Translations under genes and position numbers: made by a program
In this document: piece after piece, positions 2,833-36,606 of the stretch
Numbering within the stretch: position 1 is the stretch's first letter
Layout of the letters: every line of letters begins with the position of its first letter
The notes under the pieces: generated by a model
Told to the model about the DNA's origin: nothing
Databases searched by the model: none
What the model saw: the letters and a program-made list of their open reading frames with translations, nothing else
DNA from: Zingiber officinale
Lineage: Eukaryota; Streptophyta; Magnoliopsida; Zingiberales; Zingiberaceae
Length of the DNA stretch: 64,000 nucleotides
Assembly: GCF_018446385.1 (NCBI RefSeq)
Contig: NC_056002.1
Span: forward strand, 5,009,474-5,073,473
Direction of reading: 5' to 3'

Positions 2833-2842
2833 ATTTTCCCTT

Positions 2843-4129: not shown

Positions 4130-4131
4130 AT

Positions 4132-4143
4132 TGGTATCAGAGC
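4132..4143 (+). promoter_or_regulatory. Primer-binding site (tRNA-iMet), element 2
   Basis: TGGTATCAGAGC, two bases after the LTR end. Confidence 0.92.
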
Positions 4144-5240: not shown

Positions 5241-5760
5241 GTGATTCTTAGGATGTCTTTCAACCCACTGTCCATCATACTTCAACAGAATAGACTTACT
5301 GGACCAAACTACATAGATTGGAAAAGAAACCTGGACATTGTTCTTACTGCTGAAAGCTATAAATATTCTGAGCAGTGCCCTGATGCACCCATCGGTGAAT
5401 CTACCCAAGAGGAGATTGAATATCATAGGAAATGGGTAAAAGCGGATGAGATGGGGCGGTGTTACATTTTGGCTTCAATGTCAAATGTATTGCAACATCA
5501 AGATCAAGATTTACCAACAGCCTATGATATTATGAACAATCTCAAGGAACTCTTTGGTCATCAAGATAGGGCTTCTAGGCAAGAAGCCATGAGAAAGATA
5601 ATGACCACCATGCAAGAGGGTACTCCTGTGAGGATCATATCCTAAAGATGATGGCTTATCCGAATGAGATATGATCCTTGGAGGAGAAATTGATGGGGAA
5701 ACCCAGATCGATATGATCCTTCAACGCTACCTAGAAGTTTTGAGCCCGCCCGAACTATAA
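5241..5760 (+). pseudogene. Copia gag N-terminal part (element 2), frameshifted
   Basis: Open from 5241 to 5645, giving a UBN2-type gag start (MSFNPLSIILQQNRLTGPNY, then YILASMSNVLQHQ and YDIMNNLKELFGHQDR). The real start is probably the second Met (5251), because element 4 has the same MSFNPPSIILQQ text. After PVR the frame slips; DHILKMMAY-type sequence continues out of frame to 5760. The intact frame in element 4 confirms a small deletion here. Confidence 0.88.
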
Positions 5761-5761
5761 T

Positions 5762-9125: not shown

Positions 9126-9150
9126 AGATATGGCGACTTAGTCATTAGTA

Positions 9151-9162
9151 TAAGTGGGAGAT
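9151..9162 (+). promoter_or_regulatory. Polypurine tract, element 2
   Basis: TAAGTGGGAGAT directly before the LTR start TGTTGAGTG at 9163; plus-strand primer of reverse transcription. Confidence 0.85.
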
Positions 9163-11559: not shown

Positions 11560-12517
11560 GATCGAGTGTGCAGGAGAAGTCCAGCTAGGTCGACGGGCTG
11601 ACCGGATAGCTGGCGAGAAGTCCAAGCGGGTCGACGGGCTGACCGGACGCTTGGCGAGAAGTCCAGCTAGGTCGACGGGCTGACCGGATAGCTGGCGAGA
11701 AGTCCACAGGTCGACGGGCGGACCGGACGTTGGCAAGAAGTCCAGCTGGTCGACGGGCTGACCGGATAGGTGGTGAGGTAAGTCACTGGAGGGGAGTGAC
11801 TGTGAGGACGTGTTCCCGAGAAGGGGACATTAGGCGTCGATCCGGCTTAGATCCATTTCGGATGCCTAAGTCGAGATCGTGACTAGATTCCGGTCTCGGA
11901 AAGACGGAATCTAAGTCATACTCTCTTTATCCATCTGTTGAACTTTAACTGTGCTAACAATTTATTTTACAGGATGTATATTTGCCTCGGACTAACTTTG
12001 TTTTGCAGGAAAAAGGAGTCTTTCTGGAACAAGGTGGTCCGGGCGCCCGGAAGGCTAATTTTATCCAGCCAAGTCGTCGCCACGTGGAGCATCTTGGTTT
12101 GAGCAGTTACGTCACACTCCAGGCGCCCGGAACAGCATATAAAAGAAGCCCCAGGCAGGAGCTTCAGAAATCAATTTTTACTGAGAACTCTTCTACTGCT
12201 GGTCTTGCTGCTCGACGTTCAAGTGCGACGTCAACAACGCTCCGACAAAAGTGCTCCTCCGGTGTTTATTTAATTTTTCTTTGTCGGTATTGCTTTATTA
12301 TTACTAGCATTTCCTGTACTTATTCTGTAATCATATTTCGACTTGTTAGTGATTGCCCAACGAAAGTGGTCAAGGACCACGGGCCTTCGAGTAGGAGTCG
12401 TCACAGGCTCCGAACGAAGTAAAAACATCTGTGTCTACTTTATTTTTCCGCTGCGTTTATACTCGTCTTTTTCGAATCGATATTCACCCCCCCTCTATCG
12501 AATCTAACGGTCCTACA
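11560..12517 (+). repeat. 5' LTR of element 3 (first ~85 bp missing)
   Basis: Starts GATCGAGTGTGCAGG where element 2 ends and follows the 3' LTR to the shared end CTAACGGTCCTACA. TATA-like TATAAAAG at 12138-12145. Includes AGGCGCCCGG motifs and a C-rich end. Confidence 0.92.
11581..11765. repeat. 41-bp tandem hairpin units in the 5' LTR of element 3
   Basis: Units read outer arm, GGTC, GACGGGCT loop, GACC, GGA, outer arm. Outer arm pairs: CCAGCTA/TAGCTGG (11581-11613), CCAAGCG/CGCTTGG (11622-11654), CCAGCTA/TAGCTGG again, then two decayed units. The linker is CGAGAAGT. Confidence 0.92.
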
Positions 12518-12519: not shown

Positions 12520-12531
12520 TGGTATCGGAGC
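12520..12531 (+). promoter_or_regulatory. Primer-binding site, element 3
   Basis: TGGTATCGGAGC, one base different from the usual iMet site, two bases after the LTR end. Confidence 0.88.
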
Positions 12532-14899: not shown

Positions 14900-15654
14900 G
14901 GCTTAAAAATTAATTTTAAAATTTTAAACTTAAATTAATTTTAAACTTATTTTAATTTTAAACTTAAAAATTAATTTCAAAATTTTAATTTTAAACTTAA
15001 AAATTAATTTCAAAATTTTAATTTTAAACTTAAAAATTATTTTCAAAATTTTAATTTTAAACTTAAAAATTATTTTCAAAATTTTAATTTTAAACTCAAA
15101 AATTATTTTCAAAATTTTAATTTTAAAAATTATTTTCAAAATTTTAATTTTAAAAATTATTTTCAAAATTTTAATTTTAAAAATTATTTTCAAAATTTAA
15201 ATTTTAAAAATTATTTTCAAAACTTTAATTTTAAACTTAAAAATTATTTTCAAAATTTTAATTTTAAAATTAAAAATTATTTTCAAAATTTTAATTTTAA
15301 AAATTATTTTCAAAATTTTATTTTAAACTTAAAAATTTATTTTCAAAATTTTAATTTTAAACTTAAAAATTATTTTCAAAATTTTATTTTAAACTTAAAA
15401 ATTTATTTTCAAAATTTTAATTTTAAACTTAAAAATTATTTTCAAAATTTTAATTTTAAACTTAAAAATTATTTTCAAAATAATTATTTTCAAAATTTTA
15501 ATTTTAAACTTAAAAATTATTTTCAAAATTTTAATTTTAAACTTAAAAATTATTTTCAAAATTTTAATTTTAAAAAATTACTTTCAAAATTTTAATTTTA
15601 AACTTAAAAATTACTTTCAAAATTTTAATTTTAAACTTAAAAATTATTTTCAAA
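14900..15654. repeat. AT-rich minisatellite (~32-bp unit)
   Basis: About 750 bp built from near-identical units of the type TTTTAATTTTAAACTTAAAAA + TTATTTTCAAAA, with unit-length variants lacking the AAACTT portion. Similar unexpanded phrases occur in the 3' region of element 3 (22500-22900), so it probably arose by local expansion. It ends exactly where truncated element 4 begins. Confidence 0.9.
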
Positions 15655-16395
15655 CTTGCCCTTCGGCTTCTTCATTCCAGCTTTAAATCCCGTACTCTGA
15701 GATTTATTCACTTTCTTTGCTGAACCAGCTTGTTTCTTCTTCTTCTTTCCTTTCGGTTTAGAAGTAGAACCATTTTCAGCATAGTGAATTTGAGCATTGT
15801 GACGAAATAATCCTTCTGCTGCTTGAAGTTCTGTCAGTAGTTCCGCTAATGAATAAACCCTCTTATTCATATTATAGTTCAGGCGAAACTGCTCAAAACT
15901 TCTAGGTAGCGTTTGGAGGATCATATCGATCTGGGTTTCCCCATCAATTTCTCCTCCAAGGATCTGTATCTCATTCAGATAAGCCATCATCTTTAGGATA
16001 TGATCCCTTACAGGAGTACCCTCTTGCATGGTGGCTGTCATTATCTTTCTCATGGCTTCTTGCCTAGAAGCCCTATCTTGATGACCAAAGAGTTCCTTGA
16101 GATTGTTCATAATATCATAGGCTGTTGGTAAATCTTGATGTTGATGTTGCAATACATTTGACATTGAAGCCAAAATGTAACATCGCGCCATCTCATCCGC
16201 TTTACCCATTTCCTATGATATTCAATCTCCTCTTGGGTAGATTCACCAATAGGTGCATCAGGGCACTGCTCGGTCAAGACATATTTATAGCTTTAGCAGT
16301 AAGAACAATGTCCATGTTTCTTTTCCAATCTATGTAGTTTGGTCCAATAAGTCTATTCTGTTGAAGTATGATGGACGGTGGGTTGAAAGACATCC
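15655..16395 (-). pseudogene. Copia gag, truncated (element 4)
   Basis: 16209-15655 reads ADEMARCYILASMSNVLQHQ through DHILKMMAYLNEIQILGGEI and FEQFRLNYNMNKRVY to GMKKPKGK, the UBN2 and basic linker found in element 2 but without element 2's frameshift. The N-terminal 60 codons (SFNPPSIILQQNRLIGPNYI) lie upstream in another frame. The last codons before the breakpoint are those preceding CFICKQ in element 2. Confidence 0.9.
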
Positions 16396-17497
16396 TAAGA
16401 ATCACAAATAACTTTTGGTCGAACTCTAAATTTAGAATAATATTGATTCCTCAAACAATACTATTTTAAATTAACCAACACCTCATAACACCGTGAATTT
16501 TGTATGCCACGTTAGTGTGGACGTATACAAATTCAACACTTGTAAAGGAGGGTTTTAACCCATTAATTTTATTATCTTGTCAACCTAACTTTTGACAAAT
16601 AAAATTAATAGTTGGTATCATTTGGTCACACAAATAATAGCAGTGACTCCGTTGGGGAGGATACTATTAGATGTGTCTAAGTGTATACCATTACTTGACA
16701 CTAAGTCCATTAATAAGATTATGCCCCTTCCGTTGGGGAAGATCACACGCTCTTAATTAATTTCCTATAGTCATCCAAAAATGAAAGTCTGTTCTAGTGA
16801 TCCACAAACAAGCTCATCCGTTATGGAGGAAGGCACTCAGAGCCAACGCGCAAGCTTGTTTACATCACTTACAAACCAGTAATGGAGACCATGGGATTTA
16901 TTTAAAAATCCCTCTCCCACTTAGTTATTTATAAATGAGGAATTTTAACTATGCTAGCCTACTAAACTTGTAAACTAACATGCACACACAGCACAATATA
17001 AAAGCAATAAATAGAAAATTTAATTTTCAACTATTATGGCTTTTATCTCTAATTGTCTTCCGTGTGCTGTCATCCCAGGCTGCTGCCATATTTGGCCATC
17101 GCCTCCGGGTCTAGCTGTCGCATCCATCTTGCTCCTAGTTCCGCTGCGCCTCTGGTCCTTAGAAGGTTCCACGCTTTGCAAGATTCGATCCGCGACATAA
17201 ATAGAATTTTATATTTTGATCCTATATTCCATAAAAGGAATGTACATGTATCTAGATCAAAAATAAAATCCTAATAAAAACTAAATACAGCTCCTGCTGT
17301 ATTTTAATACAATCATGCACACACATATTAATGCCCTTGACATGTCCAAGGGTCCAATCACACACATAATAACTAAAAGCCATAATAGTTGGATCCTGCA
17401 TCCACAAAGTTAGCACATCCTACTATTAACCTGCCTAAATTATGTATGACATGTGCATAATTAAACTAAATACCAAATACACAGAGGCAAAACCCTA
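16396..17497 (-). other. Untranslated leader of element 4
   Basis: Reverse complement of the leader at 4144-5240; no coding content. Confidence 0.8.
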
Positions 17498-17509
17498 GCT
17501 CTGATACCA
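17498..17509 (-). promoter_or_regulatory. Primer-binding site (tRNA-iMet), element 4
   Basis: Minus-strand TGGTATCAGAGC two bases from the LTR edge. Confidence 0.9.
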
Positions 17510-17511
17510 AT

Positions 17512-19884
17512 TGTTGGTTGCTACTCGGAAAACCTATAGGTTCCACTGTACAAAAATTTTGTACAAAGGTCTGAACCTTTTCCTAGCTACCATGTGTTCT
17601 TTTAAATTAAATTTTGGATCGCTCGGAACTTAACACGTTTGATCCAAAACTTAATCTATTTGTTCTTTTAGGTTTTGACTTGGATCTCCCGGAACTTAAC
17701 ACGTTCGACCCAAGTCTCCTTAAGTTATTAATTCCATTAAATATTAATTTCCATAAAGGTTCCCAATCGACGTGGCGAGGCACATGGCCTTCTTGGATAT
17801 GGGAGCAACCACCACCGACTAGACAAAACCTTTAATAGAAAGCTAATATTTAATTTCCTAAAATAACTTTAGGTTAACCAAAAGAACAATCAAATCACAA
17901 GGAAAAGAAGAAAACAAAGAACACAACTTCGAAAAAACATATTCGAAATACTAGAACGTAAGTCTCTTGTATTTGGTATTATTTCCATAAATAACTAGCA
18001 TGATGCGGAAATAGAAATTACTAGTTATACCTTGTAGAAAAAAACCTCTTGATCTTCTACCGTATTCCTCTTCTAACCTCGGACGTTGTGTGGGCAACGA
18101 TCTTCCAAGATGAGAAACCACCAACCACCTTCTTCTCCTCCAAGCAAGGTTCGGCCACAAAAGAAAAACTTTACCAAGGAGAAAAACCAAAATACTAACC
18201 AAGCTCCAAGAGATGCTAGCTTTCTCTCCTTCTTCTTCTTCTTCTCCGAGTAGTATCCGGCCACCACAAGAACTCCAAGGGAGAGGGAGAGGTTCGGCCA
18301 CCACAAGAGGAAGAGAAGGAGATGATGGCCGGCCACACCAAGGAACAAAAGAGGGAGAGAATAATAGATGTTGTATCTTGTGAAGGCACCCTCACCCCTT
18401 CTTTTATATTCCTTGGCCTAGGTAAATTAGAAAATTTAATTACAATAAATTTTCCTTAATTTCCTTGACATGATTTAATTGAGAAAAATAAAATAATATT
18501 TTCCCAATTAAACAATGATGGTCGGCCAAATCAATAGGAAGCAAATTGGACAAGTTTCAATCAACAATTAAAACTTTCCTTATTTATTTCCGGAAATTTT
18601 AAAAAATAAAATTTCTCTTTAAAATCTCTTCATGGTTAATAAAAGGAAATATCTATAATTTTAATTTTATTAACATGTGAATAATTTTAAAGAGAAAATA
18701 AAACATCTCTCCAATCTACAAATAAGGAAAGAGATCTAATCTCTTTCTTTAATCTTTTGTAAATCTTTTACAAGAGAGATATTTTAATTTTAATTCTCTT
18801 TAAATTAAATCTTCCACATAATAATAAACATTAAAATTAAATTTTCTTTTAATTAATTATGGCCGGCCCTACTAGCTTGGGTTCAAGCTAGGCCGGCCAC
18901 CTTAAACCCAAGCTTAGGCCAGCGTTCCCAAGCTAGCTTGGCCGGCCCCCTTTAGGTGGGTATAGAAGGTGGGTATAGTACTCTATAAATAAGAGGCTAC
19001 GATAGGGACCGAGAGGAGGAATTGGTTTTGATCTCCGATAAAATTAAGCAATCTATCATTGAACACACAACTTAATTTTATCAATGATAATTCATTCCAC
19101 TAGAGAACTATCATTGAACTACCGCACCAATCCCAAATTACATTTTGGGCTCCTTCTTATTATGAGTGTGTTAGTCTCCTGTGTTTAAGATATCGAATGT
19201 CCACTAATTAAGTGAGTTCGACAACTCATTTAATTAATATCTAAGTCCAAGAGTAGTACCACTCAACCTTATTATCATGTCGGACTAAGTCCACCTGCAG
19301 GGTTTAACATGACAATCTTTACGAGCTCCTCTCGCGGACATTAACAACCTAGTATCACTAGGACACAGTTTCCTTCTATAATCAACAACACACACTATGA
19401 GTGATACCATTTCCCAATTTATCGGGTTTATTGATTCATCGAACTAAATCTCACTCATTGATAAATTAAAGAAATAAATATCAAACATATGTGCTTGTTA
19501 TTATATTAGGATTAAGAGCACACACTTCCATAATAACTGAGGTCTTTGTTCCTTTATAAAGTCAGTATAAAAGGAACGACCTCAAATGGTCCTACTCAAT
19601 ACACTCTGAGTGTACTAGTGTAATTATATAGTCAAGATAAACTAATACCTAATTACACTACGACCTTCTAATGGTTTGTTCCTTTCCATTCTGGTCGTGA
19701 GCTACTGTTTATAATTTATAAGGTACTGATAACATCATCTTCTGTATGTGACATCACATACTATGTTATCTACAATATAAATTAAATGAACAACTACAAA
19801 CAAATGTAGATAATTAGACCAAATGTGATTCTTTATTCATAATGAATGTTTACAAAGCTTAGGCTTTCAGTATACACTCCAACA
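17512..19884 (-). repeat. 5' LTR of element 4
   Basis: About 2.37 kb; plus strand begins TGTTGGTTGCTACTCGG and ends GTATACACTCCAACA. Reverse complement of 9163-11559 with small differences. Minus-strand TATA box TATTTATAG at 18983-18991. Flanking AAAAC after 19884 belongs to element 3 integrase. Confidence 0.92.
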
Positions 19885-22018: not shown

Positions 22019-23166
22019 GATCTTTCAAAAATACTTTCAAAAATGATTTTACCAAATTATAAGTCAAATTTATTTGTTTTCAAACTCTCCATTCTTAGAT
22101 TTTCAAAAACAGTTTTTGCCTTAGACTAGTTTTGAATCCTTAGAAAGCATGTACCCATAGGACTAGTTTTTGAGCATCTCACCAACACCCTAGGTTTACC
22201 TTGCTTGTATTTGACAAACATAGAAAGGGGTGAGATGCATAGGCCAACTGTCTGGACTTAAGATGCTTATTTCAGTGCATCAACATAAGTCTGGACGTTA
22301 AATACAACTCAGATATTAATCAGATTAAAGTTAATCAGTCAAGTCAAAAAAACTGACTGCTTGTAATCAACTTAATCTGACTAACCATGTGAAAGCTACT
22401 ATCCTCTGATAGCTAGTTAGTACCTAATTGGTTAGACAGTTGGTTAAAGTTAAATATCAAGTTCAGGGGGAGAATTAACTCAAATTTTGTGTGTTTGAAA
22501 AATGCCTTTTAAAACCTAACCTATGTTTGAACATTGATTTACAAAATTTAAATTTAACTAAGTATTTGAAAAATGTGAAAGTTTAATCCCACCCAATTTT
22601 CAAACCTGATTTGAAAAATTAACTATTTCCAAATTTAGCCTTTATCAAATTAGCCTTAAAAATTAATTTTGGAAAAATTTTATTTCTTGAAAAATTATTT
22701 AATTTTTGCTTTGTTTTGAAAAATCGAAGTTGAAAATTTTACCTTTTTGAAAAGTAGATGTTACTTAAACATAAAAAGTAAATTTGAAAAACCTATTCCA
22801 CACGCTTGAGAGTTAAACTTGATTAACCTTAAATTTATACTTTTCAAAACTCAACCTGTCTCCCCCAAGTCAACTTGACTATTTTTTGACTTGGTGTTAA
22901 AAATTGCACTTTTATCTTTCAAATTTTGAACCAAACTTAGATATCTTTCAAAATTTGATTACCTGTTACAGTAACTCTTCACTATGATTATTTACCTTTG
23001 TTCATTTTTTTGATGAATGCCAAAGGGGGAGGAGGGTTAGGTGGTTAAGTTAGCTAAACCAATTTGAAAATACAAACTAACTTTAAAACCACATAAATGC
23101 ATGTTGTTTCTTGCATATGTTTTCACTAACTTAACCAGGTTGTCATTCCATCAAAAAGGGAGAGAT
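22019..23166 (+). other. 3' untranslated stretch and polypurine tract of element 3
   Basis: About 1.1 kb with no credible ORF, rich in TTTGAAAA phrases. It ends in AAAAAGGGAGAGAT (about 23153-23166), the polypurine tract before TGTTGGTGC. Confidence 0.8.
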
Positions 23167-24243
23167 TGTTGGTGCGGTTAGCACTAACGATTTAACCCAG
23201 GTTTTGATGAATGACAAATAGGTTAAGTTAGTTTTGTTGTTGTCTGACACTTTGATCGAGTGTGCAGGAAAAGTCCAGCTAGGTCGACGGGCTGACCGGA
23301 TAGCTGGCGAGAAGTCCAAGCGGGTCGACGGGCTGACCGGACGCTTGGCGAGAAGTCCAGCTAGGTCGACGGGCTGACCGGATAGCTGGCGAGAAGTCCA
23401 AGCGGGTCGACGGGCTGACCGGACGCTTGGCGAGAAGTCCAGACGGGTCGACGGGCTGACCGGACGTCTGGCAGGTAAGTGAGGTAAGTCACTGGAGGGG
23501 AGTGACTGTGAGGACGCGTTCCCGAGAAGGGGACATTAGGCGTCGATCCAGCTTAGATCCATTTCAGATGCCTAAGTCGAGATCGTGACTAGATTCCGGT
23601 CTCGGAAAGACGGAATCTAAGTCATACTCTCTTTATCCATCTGTTGAACTTTAACTGTGCTAACAATTTGTTTTACAGGATGTATATTTGCCTCGGACTA
23701 ACTTTGTTTTGCAGGAAAAAGAGTCTTTAACAAGGTGGTCCAGGCACTGAAGGGCGCCCGGAAGGCGAATTTTATCCAGCCAAGTCGCCGCCACGTGAAG
23801 CATCTTGGTTTGAGCAGTTACGTCACACTCCATGCGCCAGGGATCCAGCGCCCGGAAGAGATATAAAAGAAGCCCCAGGCAGGAGCTTCATAAATCAATT
23901 TTTACTGAGAACTCTTCTACTGCTGGTCTTGCTGGTCGACGTTCAAGTGCGACGTCAACAACGCTCCGACAAAAGTACTCCTCCGGTGTTTATTTGATTT
24001 TTCTTTGTCGGTATTGCTTTATTATTACTAGCATTTCCTGTACTTATTCTGTAATCATATTTCGACTTGTTAGTGATTGCCCAACGAAAGTGGTCAAGGA
24101 CCACGGGCCTTCGAGTAGGAGTCGTCACAGGCTCCGAACGAAGTAAAAATATCTGTGTCTACTTTATTTTTCCACTGCGTTTATACTCGTCTTTTTCGAA
24201 TCGATATTCACCCCCCCCCTCTATCGAATCTAACGGTCCTACA
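23167..24243 (+). repeat. Complete 3' LTR of element 3 (1077 bp)
   Basis: TGTTGGTGCGG to ACGGTCCTACA. TATA-like TATAAAAG at 23862-23869. Matches the truncated copy at 11560-12517. The right flank is the LTR fragment at 24244. Confidence 0.94.
23275..23473. repeat. Five 41-bp tandem hairpin units in the 3' LTR of element 3
   Basis: Stem pairs in order: CCAGCTA/TAGCTGG, CCAAGCG/CGCTTGG, CCAGCTA/TAGCTGG, CCAAGCG/CGCTTGG, CCAGACG/CGTCTGG. All five outer stems are perfect, the inner GGTC..GACC, loop GACGGGCT and bulge GGA are invariant, and linkers are CGAGAAGT. Confidence 0.95.
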
Positions 24244-24770
24244 TAAAGTAGTCGTTGGCTACCTCTAACGGTAACACCAGTCGACTGATGGTTTTGTTAA
24301 TTGACTAGTGCTGAGATGAGTTGATATGATGATCAACTCTCTCCTCTTATTTAAGGGAAGTTTTGGGACTTGAAGGAGATTACTCATGCTTCTGAATAAC
24401 TTCTTAGCAATTATCCAAAGCTTCTAAGTCATTCTCTTCCTCCTAATCTAAGTCTTCATCTTATAAGAGGAAGAGAGCTTTGTGAGAGGTTGTACTCCAC
24501 CGAGAATGAGTAAGAGCTAGCCGGAAATTACCGAGGATTGATCCACCGAAGGATCAAGGGCTCGTCCACCTCAAGGACACGCCGTGGAGTAAGAGCAAGC
24601 AATCTCCGAATCACGTAAAGGATTTGTGTTAGCGTTTATGCTTTCTTGCTTGTTCTTATTGTTTTTGTTTAGTATATTCCTCTACGCACTAACACCTTGT
24701 AGAGAAGAAAGTAAATTGAGGGTGACTTAGCTATCCAACCCCCCTTCTAGCCGGCCACCGGTCCCCTACA
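24244..24770 (+). repeat. 3' part of another copia-type LTR (host of element 3)
   Basis: Has a TATA-like TTATTTAAG near 24346, a leader-like region and a typical end CCGGCCACCGGTCCCCTACA. The front part must lie left of the nested stack, outside the window. The right end interrupts a gypsy RNase H. Confidence 0.7.
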
Positions 24771-25850
24771 CAGTTGACTAGTCGACCTGAAGCTTCCGAG
24801 TTGGTTAATATTCGCCCCAAAGGACTATTAGTGAGGATTGCCTCTGGATGAGATAAGAAATAGGGTCTCAACCGTCGGGCGGTCAAGACCAATTTGTCCA
24901 GAACAGAGTATCGACTCTTTGTATCTTTTATAAAATGACTTAATAAATAGATTGGATATTGGATGTTACCTTTTTCGCGAAGTAGGACAGAACATACTCG
25001 TTGTTCGGCGACTAATAGATATAGTGATAAGCTCTCACCTACCATTGGCTTGGAAAGGGTGGGTAGTTCAGGCGAGTTTTCCTTAAGCTCCATAAAGGCC
25101 TGATTATATTTTTCATCCCACTCAAATTTAGAGGCCCGCCAAAGTACTTTGAGAAAAGGGAGACTCTGGTTAGCCGATCGGGAGATGAACTTGGAAAAGG
25201 TTGTGATTCAACCAACCAATCTTTGTGCTTCTTGAAGATTCTATGGAGGAGACATTTGTTGAATCACTTTGACTTTCTCTAGGTTAGCTTCAATTTCTTG
25301 TTTAGTAACCATATACCTTAGAAATCACCAACTTTTTATGCCAAATAAGTATTTGCTCGAGTTTAATTTAAGCCCAAGCTTCCTCAGAGTACCGAAAGTT
25401 TCTTCTATATCAGCCATTAGATCTTTGGCCTGCCTAGTTTTGATTAGAATATTATCCACATAAACCTCGATATTTCTTCTGATTTGGTAGCAAGACACTC
25501 AACCCATCATTTGCTGATAAGGTACCCATGCATTCTTTAAAACGAATGGCATAACATTATAACAGAAAATCTCATCAACGGTGACGAAACTAACCTTGAT
25601 CCTCCTAATGGAGAAGGGGCTTCTATTTCGACTTATAGAGATTCTTGAATCTTTTGGGTTTTACACAAATCCATTTGGATGAAATCCATGTAGCACTTGT
25701 GAGAGGTCTGATGGTCTCCTTTGGCTTCTCTAACCTACTCTCCACTAGGAACTTTATTTTTTAATGAAACATTGATACTATATATAGCTTGAAAGTCATT
25801 TAGCATTGGTCTTCCTAATATGACAATGTAGGAGGAAGATGTTGGAGCAG
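24771..25850 (-). pseudogene. Ty3/gypsy protease end, reverse transcriptase and RNase H (Tat-like)
   Basis: Reading right to left: YIVILGRPMLNDFQAIYSI (protease end), then RT text in broken frames including RRNIEVYVDNILIKTRQA (the catalytic YVDD has become YVDN), LRKLGLKLNSSKYLFGI, FISRSANQSLPFLKVLWRA, FEWDEKYNQAFMELKE and RNase H YLLVAEQRVCSVLLREKG and ASGRLVN. These phrases are characteristic of plant Tat-lineage gypsy elements. Stops and frameshifts are frequent. The protein continues upstream at 36607, across element 6. Confidence 0.9.
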
Positions 25851-26372
25851 ATTGGGCCGTCAAGAGAGGATGAATTACCTGTTTAAAAAGAAAATAAAAA
25901 CCTTTCTCAAACTTTCAACTCAGATTAGCAACATACTTATAAAAAGAAAATTAAACAACTAATAAATTAAAGACACTAAGAACTTATTTGGTTACAACCT
26001 AGGTGGTTGTTAATCCAAGATAGAAGAAAGTACTGAAAAGATCTCTTTCGTGTAGGCAGAGAAGCCTATTACACACGTTGAACGCTCAGAAATGTGCTAG
26101 GAAATAAATATAACGGTTGTTGAATTATTCCTAAATCCAGGGGTCTTTTTATAACCCCTGGAAAATTCTATCCGAGGTTGGAAGGCGCCTTCGTGGAAGG
26201 TGCCTCTAGCATAGCAATTTTATTTGTGCGAAGATAAAGTTTTATCTTTGCCAACGATCATTGGGAAGGCACCTTTGAACTGTTCATGAAAGACATCTTT
26301 GAACTGTTCATGGAAAGCACCTTCAAGCCATTGAAGGCGCCTTTGAACTGTTCATGGAAGACGCTTTCAATA
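25851..26372 (-). repeat. 3' LTR of element 6, left portion
   Basis: Matches 35892-36310. Includes a minus-strand TATA-like sequence near 26144-26153 and several GGAAGGCACCTTC inverted pairs. Its last five bases CAATA (26368-26372) are the target duplicate of the solo LTR. Confidence 0.88.
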
Positions 26373-27223
26373 TGTAGGATTGGAAAGAATGCTAGAGGGG
26401 GTGGGGTGAATAGCGATTGTGAAAATTGTTAGCAAATTAATCAAAGTACGCAACGGAAAAAATGAACCAATGCTAACAAACTGAGTTTTAATTGGTTCGG
26501 AGCCTTCCACGAATCCTACTCCAAAGCCCGCACTAGTCGAGTGTTTTCATTGGGCAATCTACTAACAATTCACAAAATATTACAGGAGAAAAGTACAAGA
26601 ACTGGAAATAAAAGTTACCAATAACAACAATAAAATGGAAAAGTCTTGGTCGTCGGTTGTCGGTGAAGCGTAGCAGCGTTGCGAGAGCCTTTTCGGAGCA
26701 CCAAGCAAGAAGACGATTTGTAGTGATTATTGTTCTGAAGCTCCAAGTCGAGGGCCTTTAAATAGGTCTACTCTGGGCGCCTAGAACCCCTCCGGATGCT
26801 TAGATCACATGGCTCGGCCAATCGACGTGCTCCACATAAGCTTGTGGATGAGTTTTTGGGTCCAGGCGCTTAGACTGCTTCAACGCCCGTGGCTGCGCTC
26901 GGGCGAGCCTGCTTTGGGAGCCCGGACCAACTCTGGGCGCTCGGAGTTCGAGCGTACGGATCCCTACCGGGCACCCTGAGTCCTTTCTTCAACAGCCTTC
27001 TTCCTACCAGAAAAGGTTAGTCCGGACAATCGAAGATTATACCTATCCTGCAAAACAGAGTTAGCACAACATAGCAAATAGGGTAGTAATTGGATCTTAT
27101 CTCCAGGAGACCAGAATTTAATCAAGATCTCAACTTAAGCTTCCCAAATAGACCTAAATTGAATCGACGCCTACAGTTCCCTCAATGGGGAACACGTTCT
27201 CACCGAATCACTCCCTTTAGTGA

Positions 27224-27540
27224 CTTACCTTTACTTACCTGCCAAACATCTGGTCCTTCAGACCCGTCTGGATTTTCTCTGGCATTGCTTAGTATCCGAC
27301 CAAGTTGATCTACTAACACTTGCCTGCAACACTGAGTTAGCACAATAGATACAAAAATGGTAAGGAAAAACAATGTTATCATTATTAATAATTCACTGGT
27401 CCAATCGACCGCGATCACATATTACCTAGTGTTACCTTCCTGTAGGGATGTCCAGCTTCACTTACTAGGACTTCCATTATCTGGCTTCAGTCACCAGGAC
27501 CTCCATCACCTGGCTTCACTCACTAGCGCCCGATTTCACT
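27224..27540. repeat. Decayed hairpin array in the solo LTR
   Basis: Contains TTAGTA-TCC-GACCA..TGATC-TACTAA (27289-27316), the same nested layout as in element 1, and several CTGGCTTCA..CACCAG units. Continues at 31295-31480 beyond the CACTA insertion. Confidence 0.7.
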
Positions 27541-27739
27541 CACACTACAAGAAAAAACATCTATTATGACATTTTCTTTACGACACTTATTAAAAAGTGT
27601 CATTATAAATATTGTATAATGACACTCTTTGCATCTAATTAATTTTTTATAAAAATCATCATATTAGACGTTTTCCCGTGACATATTTTATAAATGTCAT
27701 TACATTATAAACATATTAATCAAACCTTTTCCTTTGACC

Positions 27740-28600
27740 CTATCATTTCCTTCCCTCTCCCATTTCTTCTTCATTCCTTTTCTTTATCGCTGCTAGGTTT
27801 CTTCCATCTCCCACCTCTTCTTTTCTTCCCTCTCCACAGCACAGCCAGGTTTTTCCCTCTCTGTAGCAAGCAAGTAGTGGTTCAAAGGTAACCCTATTTC
27901 TCACTTCTTCCTTTTCCGCAACACCGCGCACAACCTCGCCAGGCGACGAGCAACCATTTTACAAGCGATCACACTCGAGAGGGCTGCAACCTCGCCAGGC
28001 CGTTGGTTCACTAGCGGCATATTCGCGAATGGCTACACGCGAAGGGGTCGATGCCTCACTAGGTAACCCATTCACAAATAGGCACATACGAGGGGGACGA
28101 TGCCGGGCAGTGACCTATAGCGAGGTAGCGACATTGCTATCTTCTTCTGAAACTCTCGCCCTTTTCCATCTCCATATACTAGTAGGAAGCTTGCCCTTTT
28201 CCTCACGCAGCACCGAGTCGAATTGATCGGTCTTTCCTTTCCCGACATTCATCTTCTCACAGGTTTGTGTCTTAATCCTCGATTGCCCCTCCCCGCTTTT
28301 CAATTCTTCCCCTCATGGCACGGTCTCGTAGCGCTCTTGCTGGAGCACGTCCGAAGGATATGTTGCGAGCACTGTATTCTTCTCTTTTTCTAACTATTTT
28401 CCTTGTTTGTTGGTTGGCACATGTTCCCCTCCCCTTTTCAATTTCTCCTCTCACGGCATAGTTGTGATGGCGGGTGTTGGTCTTGATGCTTGTTGTCATT
28501 GCGCTAATGTTGGTGCACGGTTGAAGGATCAATTTTCTTCTTCAGACGTGTTCTTCAAAGATCTGAAATCCTTGAAGAAGGTATGATGCTCAATTTTGTT
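27740..28600. other. Unidentified GC-rich segment inside the CACTA
   Basis: Higher GC than the rest of the element, short ORFs on both strands, a splice-donor-like AAGAAG|GTATG near 28580. It could be another captured gene fragment or 5' UTR; I do not recognise any protein. Confidence 0.4.
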
Positions 28601-28769
28601 TTGTTTTTTCTATCTCCTTGGCTTTAGAAATGTTTGAGTAATTAAATTGTGCTATAGAAGACATGAATGGAAGAATGAGAATGAAATAAATCAGTCTGCA
28701 TGCAATACAAGTAGATTTACCACTAATAAGCACATCTCCCATATTAAACTATCAATTCAATTTTATATA

Positions 28770-30600
28770 AAGGAGTGTGAAGAGGCATTGGTTTTGGATC
28801 CTGCTTTCAGGCATGCACAGCAAAGGTTGGCATCGTTGCTTATAAGGTTGTAACACTTTAAAAATGTTCCATTCTTTCTAATTCAAGTTTGCAAATTGAT
28901 TGCTACTGGTCCTAGTGTTATGCTGAGATATTGATATTGCTTAATTGCATATGATTCATTTCCTTGGAGCTAGTCACCCACTACTGTTATTAATTATGAC
29001 ATGTAATTTATTTATGAATACTTCTATTACATAATTAATAGGTATAATCGAAGAACTATCTCAATTTTATCAAATTTTATTCTGATTGATAAGGTTGCAT
29101 CTTTTTTTTATGGTAGAGTTGTCTTATGATTTTTGCATTGTTTATATTTGTTTTCAAAGTTGCAACATCAATCCCTTGTCCTTACTACAGTCATTTTGCT
29201 TGATCACAATTCTAAATTGTAAAAGAGATCTTTTTGTAGAATTGTGATGGAACAACTTTAAATAAATTACTACCCATATATTTGTCTTACATTCTTCTGT
29301 TTTAACTCACAATATTGGTAGATAGCCTTGGAGTGCCATTAATTGCAGTAATTAAAATGCATCCTTGTGTTGCTCAATAAGAAAACAAAAAAATAACATT
29401 GTTATTGCCATATATTAATGTTGCTCCGGATGCACTTATATATGATTAATTGAATTCTAGACATACAATCAAGTGTATGTTTTGTTTACTATGATTAGTA
29501 GACCACACTGCAACAAATATTGTGATCAGAAATAAATAATAACACGTGAAGTTTTTTATCATGTTATATGAACTCAAGAGCTTGAGAAGAAAAACAAATT
29601 GTTGTTTTTTGTGCTTAGTTTGTTTTAGTTTTTAAATTTCATTGTTCTTTCTTTTGACTCATTGTGATAAATGATGTTGATGAGTAAATCTTATACTGAA
29701 ATATGCATTCTTCTAAATAAACTGTTTATTTTGGTCAATAGGTTAGGTTAAGTTGAGAATGCTAGGAAACATCTCTTGCTAGGTTAAGTTTACATTATGT
29801 TGAATTTAGGGAGCTTCAAGCAGTGGAAAGACATTTGGACATGTGTGCAGAAGCCCGAAAGGTTGTAGATTGGAAGAGTGACCTTAAGGAGAGTGATGCT
29901 GCCTTCATTGAAGGAGCAAATGCTTCATCATTTGTAAATTCATACTAGCACTTAATCTCATTAGTTTGGATGTCATGTTAATGTTATTATAAGATAATAC
30001 AATAATGTATTCTTATAATGCCCACAATTGCAGGTAATGGCTTCAAAATGTGAAGCGTAACTTTAACTTCATCAACTTGAAGAAGCTGATATGGTCATAT
30101 CCAATGTATTTAAACTTGATAGTGTAAATTCACCATCCTCAAATACTAAGTTTTTTGGTATGCTGGCAAATTCATACTTGTATGCTGTCAATGTCGAAGT
30201 TGACATGGCTCGAGGAAGCTAATGTTAAAGTGTTATATTGCATATTAAGGTAGTTTTCAATATTTTTATGTTCATTGAAAATGTGTAATGAATAATTTTC
30301 AGGTTTGAAAATGTCTTCACAATAAGCAAAGCAGATTCATCCTAGAAATGTGGAGATATATACATTATTGAACAACACAAGAGCTATATCTCAAGCACGA
30401 GCATTAGGCAATGAACTCTTTAACTCAAGAAAATTTATGGAAGCAAGCTTAGCTTACGGGAAGGACTCAAGTATGACCCTGCAAACCTTGTTCTTTACTG
30501 CAACTCGGATAATACGAAAGACTGTTGAGGATTGCAACAAACCTTAGTATTCAAGTCAACTACATGAATGCCCTTCTTAGTTGTGCTACCTCATATTCAG
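28770..30600 (+). pseudogene. Captured fragment of a TPR-thioredoxin-like (TTL) gene with introns
   Basis: Four blocks read like consecutive TTL exons: 28770-28851 (CEEALVLDPAFRHAQQRLAS), 29741-29935 (VENARKHLLLG, then LQAVERHLDMCAEARKVVDW and AFIEGANASS), 30033-30230 (LHQLEEADMVISNVFKL, NTKFFGMLANSYLY, VEVDMA) and 30302-30600 (RFENV, then IYTLLNNTRAISQARALGNE, LFNSRKFMEASLAYGKG, VEDCNK). Spacers are AT-rich with AG acceptor ends, for example before 30302. TTL proteins are plant TPR scaffolds involved in stress and hormone responses; this copy has stops and frameshifts and lacks both ends. Family assignment is from remembered wording of TTL proteins. Confidence 0.8.
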
Positions 30601-31585
30601 AGGTGATATGATTCCCTTCTAAAATTTAATATTTTGAGTATAGTGTATAACTAGTTTTGGATGTAAAAGACTCATCATTAGTTTGCATTTGTAACTTTGA
30701 CCCAAATATTTATAGATGAATTTAGATGATCTACTTGCATTTTAAATTATATTTTATAATTTTTTTTCTATTCTAAACGGTGGATGAATTGTGATGATAT
30801 ATAAATATTGAAGTCATATTATATTCTAAATAAATATTAGTGATCATTTTAAATATATTTATAAATTATTATAATGATATTTATTAATGTTATTATAGAT
30901 TAGTTAATGTGATATTTTAAAATGATTTTATAAATTATTTTTATTGATATTTTTTATTGTCCTTATAAAAAATATAAATGTCATAATAAATGAGTTTTGG
31001 TGACATTTAACTTTGTCCATATTATAATCATAACAAGACAAATATAAATGTCTTTAAAATATGATTTTTCTTGACATTTTAGAGTGTCATTATATTTTGA
31101 AATTGTGACACTTTTGACGTTAGCATTGATATTGTATAACGACATTATAAAATGTCAGGAATGTGAGGAAGGTCTAAAACGACATCACTATATAGGGCGT
31201 TTTTTGGAGATGTCACTAAAATGTTAGTGTCACCATAAATATACTATAAGGACATTTATGTGTGTCATAATAGACTATTATTCTTGTAGTGTCACTAGGA
31301 CTTCCACCACCTAGCTTTACTTACTAGGATCCGGTTTCACTCACCAGGACTTTCACCAGTTAACTTCACTTACGAGGGCCCGACTTCACTCACTAAGACT
31401 TTCCCTTGCTTAACCTCCAATTAGGACTAGTCACTTAGTAGACTTCTCACCTCCCTATCCTTTGGTTAGGACCTACCCTTGCTAGTCAATTTTCTCTTCC
31501 AAACATTAAACCATTAGTCAAACTAACTAGACTAAGGTACATTTCAAACATCAAAACCCTATAGGTCGATTGCACCAACACAATA

Positions 31586-31918
31586 ACTTGAAGGAGCCTT
31601 CGCACTGTTCATGGAAGGCACCTTCTATAAGGCAGTTTAGCTTCTTTTCTCCTCAAGCAAGCTTCCGCTCCAGCTTCTCGTCCTTTGGAAATATCGCGTG
31701 CTTCCTTCTCATCTGCCAGCATACTTTTTCGCAACACTTGGTCCCTCAGACACACCGAGCCCGTCGACTCTCTCCCATGCTATCCTTCTCGCTAGCTGCG
31801 TCTTTCGCTCGACTTCTTGTGCTCCTAAGTTCCAATGTACTTAAAAGCAGGGGTTAAACAACAACAGAATCTAACTTGACATGGTTGATCATATCAAAAT
31901 TATCACGGGGTACTTAAA
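31586..31918 (-). repeat. 3' LTR of element 6, right portion
   Basis: Continues the LTR after the solo LTR insertion and matches 36320-36606 (CTTCCGCTCCAGCTTCTCG and onward), ending GGGTACTTAAA. A polypurine tract lies just outside it on the minus strand (31919-31934, AAAAAGGGAGAGAT). Confidence 0.85.
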
Positions 31919-31934
31919 ATCTCTCCCTTTTTGA

Positions 31935-32737
31935 TGTGAGCAATTTTAAGTTAAGTTAGGGTAAAAAAATAATATTAAGATAATTAATATTGCAAATAAT
32001 AATGTGTAAAAAATAATGATACCCTCCCCCTAGACTTAATGATCACTTCTTCCCCTTTTATAACATAAAAATAGGGTATTCTAAAATGTTTTAAGAATAA
32101 AGTCAAAAACAAAGTCTAAGGAAAAATATTCTTATCTAGAAAAGTTTGAAAGATTAAATGTCAAAAAATCTAGACTTAAAAAATACTTTGAAAAATATTT
32201 TTAATTATCGAAAAAAATTTAACAGACATATATAAGACAGATAAAAATTTTCATATAAAGTTAACATTATTGTAAGTAGAAATAAAGTCCTTTCTACATA
32301 AAAAATGGTTATTAATCATGAAAAATCTTGAACTATTTTCTGAGAATCCATTATAGCAAGTAACTTTGCAAAAAAAATAAATTTTCAAAAATTTGAATTT
32401 TCAAGAATTTTTAATATTAAATATTTACATTTGGATAGATAATTCATAGAAACTTCAATAACAGTCAGAAACTTTTAAAATTTTTCTTACAGATAAATGA
32501 TGAAATTAGTTTTTTTTTTAAATAACTTCTAATTAATTTATAACAAAATGTATGCAAACCAATTTATTTGAAAGTACTTTTATAACGATTAAATGTTTAA
32601 CAGTTAGTCAATTAAATATTTATTTCAGTAATTGACTTCCAAGCTGTGACGAGATACTAGGTCTTTTTGATAATTGGAACAACAATTATGTTGTGGATTT
32701 TAAACAAAACAACAACACCACAAAAAAGGCGAAAGGT
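31935..32737. other. AT-rich internal remnant of element 6
   Basis: No ORF or motif recognised. Probably the 3' untranslated region of a SIRE-like copia element, by position. Confidence 0.55.
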
Positions 32738-33449
32738 GTTGGGTACTAGACTGCCGAGCGGAACACAAAAAAAGTTACAAACATCTATAATGAAGGGATG
32801 TACAGGGAAACGCAGACCGACAGTAAACTAGTCGCGGAAGACACAGAAAGCTCCGCGCGGCGGCTTGTGTGGCCGAGCGGAGGGACCGGGGAAAAGAAGG
32901 TAAAGAAAGCACCGGAAACAAGGAAAGAAGGAAATAAAGCCTTACGAAGAGGAGAAGGATCGGGGAAGAGGCGCCGGAGGTCGTCGGAGAGCAGGAGCGA
33001 GATCGCCGGAGCACCGAAGCAACAGGGACGGAGGTAGAAATCGCGACAGCAAATGCGGTGGAAGGGAGGAAAACGGAGATTTTATAGGGAGGAGGCCGAG
33101 CGGCCTCCACCGTTGGATCCAGGTCACGGGAATCAGAGCGCGCATCGTACCGTCCATTTCGAACCGTGTCGATCCCATCACAGTACCACGCCGCCGCCGT
33201 ACAATTACGGCAGCACCGCCACGTGGCAGACAGCCACTGGAACGCATTTAATGGGCGCGTGCTCGACCTTAATGACTGGGATTGGCGAAAACTTCGAAGA
33301 GACGTCGATTAAGGCAACCGTTGACTGGCGTTTTATCTACCCCCTGTGTCTCCGAGCGGAAGGTGGTTTTAGTAGGCCGTTCGGATCAACTAATGGTTCA
33401 GTCAGTCGGACTAATCGCCTCCTTCGACTAGACTTGAAGGGGAGGCAAG
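32738..33449. other. GC-rich insert preceding an LTR; internal end of another retroelement or a separate insertion
   Basis: Sharp GC increase at 32738. Short ORFs on both strands, none recognised. It ends GACTTGAAGGGGAGGCAAG, a plausible polypurine tract for the LTR at 33450. A minus-strand CCTATAAAAT near 33075 raises the alternative of an oppositely oriented LTR or promoter fragment. Confidence 0.45.
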
Positions 33450-34297
33450 TGATCCGGCGGTAAGAACAGGGGACCCCCGTTCTGAGGAGCCAACGCCACG
33501 TGGAAGTCAAAGGGCCAGGTGGTCGATAGGAGAAAGATGGACCGACCGGACGCCCCAGAAAAGGTTGGACCGATAGGCCGACCGGAGAGTGGTGAGTCGA
33601 TTGCCCGGCCGACCGACCACTGTCTAAATGATGGCAAAAAGGCGCCCCGGCAGGAGCCGAGGTTCCGGCGCTTATTGAACAGGATTACAGGGTCGAGCGG
33701 ATGGCACGCTCGGCCGAAGACGTAAGATAGCATACTGCTAACAGTCTCCACAGAGCACGTTACCAAGAATCTCCCAAGTAAATCACTATATATGGCCGGT
33801 CGGACGTAAGGTGAGTGCTGGCCGGCCGGACGTCCGATAGGGAGTAAGGAGAAAAGGACAAGGGACACCTTCTGACAGCGGGCATGTTCTGTGATCCGGC
33901 CATGCGCCAAATCTTACTACACGGGGTTCCGCTGTCCCATCGAAGACGTGCTTGAACTGTAGCAGTATGGTGTCAGGTAAGCTTGCTGACAGGCCCTTAC
34001 TGGGGTATGGGCTGAGGACACATGTTCGCCTAGGTATGTGTGTCGAAGCTCCTTCCCTGCTCTATATAAGAAGCTCCGCATTTCGCCAGAGGTACGCGTT
34101 CTATGCTATTAGGAGTCACTTCTTAGTTGTCTGCTTACCTGACTTGAGCGTCGGAGGGTTGTCGCTGGGAACCCCTTCCCGGCCCGACTTCTGTGCAGGA
34201 TCACCGGAGGTCCGTGCGGACGGTCAGAGATCTACTTCAGCAATTCGGAGAGCACCACGTGCCCAGCGTCCGTTGATTCGACTTTCGGACAGGATCA
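33450..34297 (+). repeat. LTR (family shared with 42783-43584)
   Basis: Begins TGATCCGGCGGTAAG and ends CGGACAGGATCA, with the same 6-bp inverted ends TGATCC/GGATCA as the minus-strand copy at 42783-43584. TATA box TATATAAG at 34063-34070. Rich in CCGAGCGG and GGCCGACCGG palindromes. Inserted in the internal region of element 6. Confidence 0.75.
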
Positions 34298-34716
34298 AAT
34301 TACTTCTAGACAAAGTCTTTTAAAGAAATTAAATATTTAATTTGTTTTTGAAAGCCCTATGTCTAACTTTCAAAAATTTTAATTAAGAAAAAAAATAGGG
34401 CATGCAAAAAAAAAATTAACCTAAAATAGATTTCTTCCTATATGATTAATCAAAAATTTCTTAGGAATATATTTCTGTGATATGTTTTTAATTTGACCCT
34501 TATGGTATCTAAAGTACCAATTTAATCTATTAGATCTTCTAACTTGTTGAATATGTGAGCATGCGTGATTTTTTTAAACTCTTTTATGTCTATTTTTAAT
34601 TTTTAATTTTCTATTTTTATCTTGTCGAAGTCTTCTAATCGATAAAATGTTGCTAGAATTCTTTTTGAATTTATCATTTTCTTTTTCTAATTTACAAGAA
34701 TTTGTTGATAACACTT
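34298..34716. other. AT-rich internal remnant of element 6
   Basis: No ORF. Lies downstream of gag on the minus strand; pol would be expected here and is absent. Confidence 0.5.
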
Positions 34717-35890
34717 TTATAAACTGAAATAATTTATCAAGAGGTAGAGACCGTATTTGACTGACTTTGTCGATCCATAATCTGAAGCTCCCCCTGAAGT
34801 GTTGTAGTCTTCTAATGTCGCTCCCCCTTTATCGATGTTCATTTCAGATGAGCTTGCTTTGTCTTTATCTTCTTGGTGACTTGCCACTAGCGTAAGTCTA
34901 GCAATGGCTTCGATCTCTGATTCGGACAACGTTTCGTCCCATATCGCCTTTAGATTTTTGTACTTGTTCTGGGCTGGCTTCTTGTTCTTTACCTTGTCCT
35001 TGTCCTTTCTTTTCAATTTTGGATAATTATCTTTCACGTGCCCTTCTTCATTGCAGTGGTAGTATCTTACATTTCTTTTTCTTTGTTTACCCTGCACTTA
35101 ATTAATTTTATTGGTTTTAAATAACTTTTTAAACTTCCTTACCATGAACGCAATTTCTTCATCATCAAGAGAAGTTTCAGAATTTGGTTCGTTCATTTTT
35201 GCTTTTAAGGAGATATTATGCTTGGGCTTCTTCTTCAAATCTGCACATCTCGTTTCATGAACTTCAAAAGTTGAAAATAATTCTTCTAGGGTACTTACTT
35301 CTAGATCCTTAGAGATATAATAAGCATATACTAATGATGCTCATTCAGTAGTCCTAGGAAATGCGTTAAGCGCGTATCTTAGCGAATCTCGGTTGGTTAC
35401 CTTTTCTTCGAGATTCGTGAGTTCGATGATGAGTTTTTTTATTCTTGAGTAAAGGGGTGCAACAATTTTGCCTTCTTCTAATTTGATGTCGATGATATGA
35501 TTCCGGAGCAAATCCTATCTCACAATTTTTGCCTCCTAGATCCATTCATGTAGTTCCAGGAATTTCTCCCAGAGCTCCTTGCCTGACTTGTAGGCTCTGA
35601 TCCGGTTGACTTATTATGAAGGTAAGATGCTCACCAGATGGAACTCTGCTTTGTCGTTTGTCACGAAGTCGGCTTGCTCCTTCTTAATCTACTGGTATTT
35701 TGTCTTCTGGTGCTTCAAAATCAAATTTCATAACTAGTAATACATCAAAATTGGTCTTAAAAATATCTCCATTTTTTTTTCCAAATCACGAAGTCCCCCT
35801 CGAACTTAGGTGGGTTGATGTTCGGTCTGACCATCTCTTGTGTTTCGATCGGCAGTTAGTCCTTCTAAAGCGACATCGCTCTAATACCAC
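34717..35890 (-). pseudogene. Copia gag remnant (element 6)
   Basis: 35097-34717 is open: a zinc knuckle in which two Cys have become Tyr (YHCNEEGHVKDNY), a basic KDKDKVKNKK stretch and an acidic tail. Upstream to 35870 the capsid region is broken into frames but still shows FEAPEDKIPVD and KELWEKFLELHE phrases. Both Cys-to-Tyr changes are G-to-A on the coding strand, consistent with methylcytosine decay. Confidence 0.82.
35878..35889 (-). promoter_or_regulatory. Primer-binding site, element 6 (one mismatch)
   Basis: Minus-strand TGGTATTAGAGC, one C-to-T change from the iMet-type site, two bases from the LTR edge at 35892. Confidence 0.85.
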
Positions 35891-35891
35891 T

Positions 35892-36606
35892 TGTTGGAGC
35901 AGGTTGGGTCGATAAGAGAGGGTTAATTGCCTGTTGAAAAATAAAATAAAACCCCTTTTCAATCTTTCAACTCAGATTAGTAGCACACTTATAAAAAGAA
36001 AATTAAATAACTAATAAATTAAGGACACTAAGGAGTTATTGGGTTACAACCTAAGTGGTTGTTAATCCAAGACATAAGAAAGTAATGAAAATATCTCTTT
36101 TGTGTAGGTGGAGAAGCTTGTTATACTTATTAAACGCTCAGAAAACTAGAAAGTGAATACAAGAGTTGTTAAATTATTCCTAACTCCATGGGTCTTGTTA
36201 TAGCCCCTAAAAAATTCTATCCAAGGTTGGAAGGCGCCTCCAATGTGACAATTTTATCTGTGCAAAGATAAAGTTTTATCTTCACTAACGGTCACTGGGA
36301 AGGTGCCTTCGAACTGTTCATAGAGCAAGTGTCTTTTCTCCTTGAACAAGCTTCCGCTTCGGCTTCTCGTTCCTCGGAAACGCCGCATGCTTCCTTCTCA
36401 TCTGCCAGCGTACTCCTCCGCAGCACCTCGTCCCTTAGATGCACCGAGCCCGTCAACTCTCTCCTGTGCCGTCATTTTCGCTAGCTACGTCTTTCGCTCG
36501 ACTTCCTGTGCTCCTAAATTCCTGTACACTTAGACACAAGAGTTAACAACAACAGGACCTAATTTGACTTAATTGATCATATCAAAATAACCACAGGGTA
36601 CTTACA
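35892..36606 (-). repeat. 5' LTR of element 6 (715 bp)
   Basis: Plus strand TGTTGGAGCAGGTTGG to GGGTACTTACA; matches the split 3' LTR. Followed by GAAGA. Confidence 0.9.

Follow-up and report, generated by a model that had tools for sequence, protein, structure and literature searches.

A distal U3 array of nested hairpins with unit-specific, compensated stems in a Sirevirus-type LTR retrotransposon of Zingiber officinale

The window analysed here, a 64,000-nucleotide stretch of Zingiber officinale DNA, contains a tandem array of nested hairpins (23275-23471) within the 3′ LTR of a retrotransposon designated element 3. Its sequence features assign the array to the distal U3 of an LTR retrotransposon of Sirevirus type (Ty1-copia). 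The features of element 3 are as follows:

11560-12517, plus strand: 5′ LTR, first part removed by element X
12523-12531: PBS, TATCGGAGC; 5′ LTR junction CA-AGTGG-TATCGGAGC, one mismatch to the Sirevirus form
23157-23164, plus strand: polypurine tract (PPT) AGGGAGAG, adjoining the 3′ LTR
23167-24243, plus strand: 3′ LTR, TGTTGGTGC ... CCTACA; begins after AGGGAGAG-AT and ends with TACA
23275-23307, plus strand: unit 1, word A, CCAGCTA / TAGCTGG
23316-23348, plus strand: unit 2, word B, CCAAGCG / CGCTTGG
23357-23389, plus strand: unit 3, word A
23398-23430, plus strand: unit 4, word B
23439-23471, plus strand: unit 5, word C, CCAGACG / CGTCTGG, the usual terminal unit of the family
23862-23869, plus strand: TATA box TATAAAAG of the 3′ LTR

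The first-pass annotation of this DNA described five 41-bp units with perfect 7-bp outer arms in the order A-B-A-B-C, and this description was confirmed. Read on the plus strand, each unit comprises an arm, GGTC, GACGGGCT, GACC, GGA and the complementary arm, with GCGAGAAGT as linker. The 19-nt core is identical in all five units and the arms are exactly complementary within each of them. The array begins about 110 bp inside the 3′ LTR; the position of the TATA box (23862), downstream from it, places it in U3. It is therefore promoter-upstream in the DNA and part of the 3′ portion of the transcript. The 5′ LTR, whose start was cut off by element X (ending at 11559), retains units at 11581-11613 (A), 11622-11654 (B) and 11663-11695 (A), followed by two decayed units reaching to about 11773. 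Rfam covariance models gave no matches up to E = 1 on either strand of the 23100-24300 segment. More U3 hairpins of element 3 lie beyond the array, at 23487-23612 (AGTCACT-GGAGGGG-AGTGACT and TAGATTCCG..CGGAATCTA); the matching place in a further LTR of the window, LTR4, retains TCACT-AAAGGG-AGTGA and GTTCCC-CATTGA-GGGAAC. Two oppositely oriented copies of another copia-type element (3549-11559 and 15654-19880), with many blocks 94-100% complementary, also break into this element: one truncates its 5′ LTR and the other sits within it. Between the element 3 gag and the inserted element is a very AT-rich tandem array (14903-15654) made up of 22.8 copies of a 33-bp unit, with a 273-bp higher order.

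Similar hairpins are found at other places in the window:

1680-1688: PBS of element 1, TATCAGAGC; 5′ LTR junction CA-AGTGG-TATCAGAGC, exact Sirevirus form
1694-3548, minus strand: 5′ LTR of element 1, of Sirevirus type
2285-2590, minus strand: GATCGGTC..GACCGATC palindrome cluster of element 1, of the published RM type, directly upstream of the TATA box
2630-2832, minus strand: five nested units of element 1 (CCAGATG, GTCAAGTA, CTAAGTG, CCTAGCA, ACCAACA)
2905-3313, minus strand: element 1, 14 simple hairpins, all perfectly paired (CCAAGT, CCAAGC, CCAAAC, CCTGG, CCTAG, CCTAAC)
26373-31580, minus strand: LTR4, a solo Sirevirus-type LTR with a 5-bp duplication, TATTG, interrupted by a CACTA-like element
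27239-27269, minus strand: LTR4 nested unit CCAGACG / TGTTTGG
27289-27316, minus strand: LTR4 nested unit TTAGTA / TACTAA
61150-61480, minus strand: LTR5, an old fragment with CAGAT and CAGCTA stems alternating around a simple loop

The first-pass annotation also proposed that two LTR families share one design (outer arm, GGTC, loop, GACC, GGA, outer arm). This finds support, as the GGA of element 3 and the TCC of element 1 are equivalent once element 1 is read in its sense (minus) strand. Its unit at 2802-2832, additional to the earlier list, has GATC/GATC as inner stem. Most of the element 1 hairpins (14 simple and 5 nested) are preceded by an AAGTCC-like leader. The CCAGACG unit of LTR4 directly precedes CAGGTAAGT..AGGTAAGTCACT, the same context as that of unit 5 in element 3. 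As to the surroundings of LTR4, the CACTA-like DNA transposon (27542-31294; ends CACTACAAG / CTTGTAGTG, 3-bp duplication TGA) lies inside one of its hairpin units. LTR4 itself is inserted, with the TATTG duplication, in the first LTR of an older LTR element, Y (25840-36546), in which 25840-26092 and 31643-31857 match 35892-36144 and 36332-36546.

The same annotation had called the two LTR families unrelated. This view has to be abandoned: both LTRs start with TGTTGGTGC, share a Met-tRNA-type PBS with the Sirevirus spacer, and have a poly-C signal close to their end as well as a TATA box that follows the array. By sequence, both elements bear hallmarks listed for the genus Sirevirus by Bousios et al. 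2010 (PMC2829016). There, the 5′ LTR junction is given as CA / ATTGG or AGTGG / TATCAGAGC. The PPT was scored on element 3, as the 3′ end of element 1 falls outside the window. The junction reads AGGGAGAG-AT-TG (23157-23168), its octamer differing at one position from the Sirevirus AGGGGGAG, additional copies of which occur at 22465 and 23024 (plus strand) in the linker upstream of the 3′ LTR. An inverted repeat identified by eye around this junction (TTGTCATTCCATCAAAA, 23140-23156, and TTTTGATGAATGACAA, 23202-23217) has its left arm bordering the PPT, as it does in Sireviruses. Poly-C stretches of the ATTCACCCCCCC type are present close to the LTR ends of element 1, element 3 and LTR4. Element 1 has a 491-aa ORF with a zf-CCHC domain (Pfam, E = 0.00023); element 3 matches the copia-type gag and RT domains Retrotran_gag_2 and RVT_2 (Pfam), in broken frames.

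The array is far beyond chance. The window contains 14 GGTC-N4-10-GACCGGA cores, 12 of them with a flush outer arm of at least 5 bp; in 100 dinucleotide shuffles of the window, cores averaged 0.08 and never had arms. A word-free descriptor of the nested hairpin (any outer arm of at least 6, any inner 4-mer, a 3-nt bulge) matched 17 + 6 times. Sirevirus arrays account for 13 of these matches, element 3 contributing 8 and element 1 another 5; among the rest are AT-rich repeats and a single place that was counted threefold. In 60 shuffles, the means were 0.73 and 0.83 and the maxima 3 and 4. As a chance control, 35 bacterial and viral loci (27 with the exact core) showed arms of at least 5 bp at 0 of 40 cores, the longest being 4. 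In the source genome (an assembly of 3,090,333,446 bases, 3.09 Gb; counts may include both haplotypes) the exact element-3 core occurs 41,825 times (21,013 + 20,812), against 0 + 0 for the reversed control. The element-1 type, GGTCAAN{3,8}TGACCGGA, has 87,279 matches (43,418 + 43,861), and its control 9 + 9 = 18. Word A alone is perfect 12,220 times genome-wide. Thus, the excess of the descriptor over shuffled sequence in the window and over the reversed control genome-wide is the opposite of the outcome that the first-pass annotation had named as speaking against the design.

Fetching of 30 loci yielded, with the window, 44 arrays and 194 fuzzy-core units; the array listing contains two stray fuzzy matches, of which one lies in L081 (at 932) and the other is an element-1 unit from the window. 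Exclusion of 10 units with more than 3 unpaired positions left 184 usable element-3 units, 121 of them perfect over 7 bp, the commonest words being A (50), B (32), C (19) and E (CCAGACA, 13). Among exact-core units, 76 of 109 were perfect. The family has a recurring unit order, E-A-B-A-(B-A)n-C. In 40 further loci, selected for containing word A, E came first in 29 and C last in 32, with 5 unclassifiable ends and 3 B in the rest; their tally, from which word-A units were excluded on account of this selection, showed 100 of 132 B, C or E units to be perfect. The proposed duplication of the A-B pair is borne out by an 82-bp period at 97% matches and by ABAB in several arrays. The idea that stem C was newly diversified was rejected, C being terminal in 32 of 40 sampled arrays and occupying the same place in a third LTR, LTR4. 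Hybrids of two words account for at most 8 of the 194 units.

In a set of ten different natural units taken from element 1, element 3 and LTR4, pairing holds in 107 of 107 cells (G-U counted as standard). Two-sided changes affect 8 of 11 pairs, including one inner-stem pair. The covariation score of this set is 0.693, compared to 0.298 for shuffled units (0 of 500 reaching 0.693) and 0.040-0.149 for slid ones. In the unfiltered collections, own arms pair in 0.895 of cells in the 194 element-3 units versus 0.627 with arms shuffled (maximum of 1000 shuffles, 0.667), and in 0.811 versus 0.482 in 185 element-1-type units. This comparison replaces a count of 91 of 91 pairs, dropped since its right arms had been derived by complementing the words. 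The inner stem is GGTC/GACC in 109 and GATC/GATC in 28 of 150 element-1-type units (the 185 minus 35 with fewer than 5 paired positions). An asymmetry between GGTC/GATC (12) and GATC/GACC (1, no real unit) in these 150 was not used: only the right-arm C, and not the position opposite it in the left arm, is part of a CCG, and cytosine methylation by itself could produce the difference. The GGA bulge is retained while the stems vary. These data show that arms and inner stem change on both sides together across families, and that the outer-arm sequence is fixed by unit position, differing between units yet pairing, around an invariant core.

Where perfect units of one array carry different words, 908 of 2030 stem sites and 102 of 2755 core sites differ between them. 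The two LTRs of single insertions gave another picture. In 20 LTR pairs (3 of 23 dropped for identity below 0.85), changes after insertion affected 31 of 1677 stem sites and 54 of 2256 core sites; cells were counted from both sides, and only units having 6 or more paired positions were used. Six further pairs (11 minus 4 below 0.9 identity and 1 on opposite strands) showed changes at 27 of 484 stem versus 5 of 665 core sites, 8 of the 27 coming from one pair that is probably out of register. The post-insertion contrast is thus much smaller than that between units and not uniform, stems and cores having changed to a similar extent overall. The stems therefore do not stand out clearly as a genomic mutation hot spot, and the large difference between units seems to date from the active phase of the elements.

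Covarying stems rank among the strongest sequence-only signs of a functional fold. Stems that vary yet pair around an unchanging centre suggest that the folded shape matters. The interpretation we favour, and to which we give about an even chance, is that the array would be a selected, folded U3 cis element, with both arm pairing and core sequence under selection in active copies. The between-unit contrast of stems and cores points to such selection on pairing, and the fixed bulge to a hairpin presenting core and GGA as what a factor would recognise. Exchange within identical cores would yield unmatched arms; a pairing requirement would purge these and let distinct stems persist. The array might then act as a multi-copy cis signal, either in RNA, U3 being in the 3′ part of the genomic transcript, or in extruded or single-stranded DNA. 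Counting against the folded element are the stem excess in the six LTR pairs (27/484 versus 5/665), tolerance of the CGCTTAG variant of word B, inconsistent signs of folding as sense RNA, and folding in which the designed hairpins compete with inter-unit pairing in the sense RNA and do better on the antisense strand.

On the question of which molecule folds, a perfect palindrome has the property that a C-to-T change in one arm and a G-to-A change in its partner represent a single kind of event on opposite DNA strands, so that sense G.U in excess of A.C would indicate RNA. Word A conforms to this at pair 4 (491 G.U versus 311 A.C types) and at pairs 1, 2 and 5 (668 versus 604). Word B goes the other way, with 10,190 on the C.A side and 9,740 on the U.G side, a difference of 450 that, judging by the listed places, comes largely from the spread of the CGCTTAG variant; because this C.A variant was passed on, one mismatch is tolerated. 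The samples were balanced, with 31 versus 32 in element-3 units, 17 versus 12 in element-1-type units and 19 versus 12 in the 40 loci; among LTR-pair changes, the numbers were 3 versus 11 in the 20-pair set and 11 versus 2 in the 6-pair set. With words A and B in disagreement, the ratio was rejected as a decisive sign of RNA folding; we read the pattern as lineage effects plus neutral decay and no proof of an RNA fold. No strand preference was found in the decay, and no consistent sign of sense-RNA folding. When single strands were folded, element 1 reached a z-score of -6.0 on the sense and -8.6 on the antisense strand, against 20 shuffles each; the values for element 3 were -2.0 and -4.2, against 100 shuffles each. 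With natural 60-nt flanks, the mean arm pairing probability was 0.60 sense and 0.89 antisense in 118 units, and 0.38 and 0.58 in a second set of 72; the gap is smaller with DNA parameters. Antisense folds better in part because the unpaired bases of the sense strand abound in G and are short of C (of 470 such bases in element 1, 183 are G and 40 are C). When the whole element 3 array is folded as sense RNA, the designed hairpins lose to inter-unit pairing; they fold best in single-stranded cDNA (antisense).

Reporter arrays of the MS2 or PP7 kind and retroviral packaging hairpins consist of a constant loop and bulge on interchangeable stems, in tandem. Their likeness to the element 3 array is an analogy only. 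A bolder version of the folded-element reading, rather unlikely as it stands, would make the array a natural counterpart of an engineered multi-hairpin tag, with one protein-binding loop-plus-bulge module carried on distinct, position-assigned stems. Stem diversity would favour local folding, and core exchange, by unmatching arms, would render recombinants self-defeating; the whole might provide, in several copies, a signal for assembly, localisation or regulation, carried either by the 3′ portion of the RNA or by single-stranded cDNA.

A mutational origin is an unlikely alternative. If the template were switched at the hairpin while the element was being reverse-transcribed or replicated, one arm could be copied onto the other, which would account for two-sided, multi-base stem changes without any selected function; confined to reverse transcription, such a process would escape a comparison of dead copies. 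In the dead genomic copies, arm restoration was not seen at pair 4 of word A, where both sides are changed 18 times versus 12.5 expected under independence (P = 0.08). The 20 LTR pairs show 20 one-sided and 3 compensated changes, all 3 in two doubtful pairs, and the 4 compensated cells of the 6-pair set come from one pair whose units are probably out of register. Moreover, copying across the stem should erase or double the one-sided 3-nt bulge, and the bulge is kept.

Also to be weighed, and quite unlikely in our estimation, is a role as duplex-DNA cis-regulatory repeats, in which host factors bind the core, with its inverted TGAC words, in double-stranded form, and arm pairing is incidental or mere dyad symmetry. 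The location in U3 with the TATA box downstream fits this proposal, as do the decay without strand preference and, in passages of PMC2829016, the interpretation of Sirevirus palindromes as regulatory boxes. These palindromes (repeated-motif or RM boxes) are described there as multi-copy LTR elements of U3 upstream of the TATA box. The array is like them in being made of multi-copy palindromic units, in U3 of the same genus, before the TATA box (array 23275-23471 in the upper half of LTR 23167-24243, TATA box at 23862), and some RM boxes shown in PMC2829016 have GGTC/GACC-like halves (Osr10 CGGTCTGACCG, Osr8 CGGTCAGACCG). RM boxes as presented there are short and near-identical within an element, with a CGG-CCG core, whereas the array has covarying, unit-specific stems, which between different words differ at the 908 of 2030 sites given above, and a one-sided GGA bulge. 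In all 13 nested units with perfect arms that elements 1 and 3 have in the window, GGTC is preceded by A or G and never by C, so that CGG/CCG halves do not pair. We therefore rejected the equation of the array with the RM boxes of the literature: it lacks their paired CGG-CCG core, and the RM-type cluster of element 1 forms a block of its own, separate from the nested units and nearer the TATA box. This distinct block counts against the duplex proposal too, which moreover leaves unexplained why arm words should differ between units at about 45% of sites and nonetheless pair. An RM pattern lies downstream of the nested block in 10 of 30 fetched element-1-type loci, representing 5 distinct places.

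The core, under the duplex proposal, also resembles tandem palindromic enhancers of other plant LTR elements. In the plant copia element Tnt1, U3 repeats are tandem and partly palindromic, as in the array; they are read as enhancer repeats, and covarying stems are not known in them. Tandem U3 repeats of Tnt1 are mentioned in a passage of PMC3601003.

Maize Sireviruses reportedly have a palindrome-rich, hairpin-forming cis region (Bousios et al. 2016, Genome Res). According to passages of PMC10760457, which relay this work, hairpin-forming palindromes in maize Sireviruses are associated with small RNAs; they share with the array a hairpin-forming block in the regulatory part of the LTR. The maize consensus, CACCGGACNNNGTCCGGTG, is reportedly a single palindrome word, and those passages make no mention of unit-specific compensated stems. 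That association lends itself to a further explanation, a very unlikely one, in which the array is a small-RNA target or source and what matters is processing of the hairpins by the host, or evasion through stem diversification. Diversifying escape would not be expected to leave words constant by position through thousands of copies, word A being perfect in 12,220 cases, and stems of 7 bp are short for Dicer substrates. Scarcely credible, finally, is a functionless array of ancient stem words kept passively while inter-unit exchange homogenised the cores: the recurrence of CCAGCTA and CCAGACG with different loops in LTR5 and LTR4 and the rarity of two-word hybrids (at most 8 of 194) agree with it, but core exchange would unmatch arms and the commonest forms stay matched.

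Palindromic, hairpin-forming Sirevirus LTRs are thus already on record in the sources cited, and the unit-specific compensated stems around a fixed core are a new twist; RM boxes near the TATA box aside, searches of open-access full texts turned up neither an account of such compensated stems assigned by unit position nor one of covarying hairpin arrays in LTRs. The array allows a direct test of a question left open by the published authors: do the palindromic blocks of Sirevirus LTRs function as a folded nucleic acid, or as binding sites in duplex form? It is also a case of tandem repeats keeping distinct units despite identical cores. With tens of thousands of nested units, few stem words and a fixed order in one genome, it constitutes a large natural experiment in which the two LTRs of each insertion date the changes in the hairpin array.

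Two other repeat regions lie elsewhere in the window. A long pyrimidine-rich, degenerate tandem region of the TCTCTC/ATCACACT type extends over 41257-41771. In the interval 45948-47789, three almost identical 81-bp GC-rich repeats precede a probable host gene, an ORF (46749-47789) that encodes an AP2 domain.
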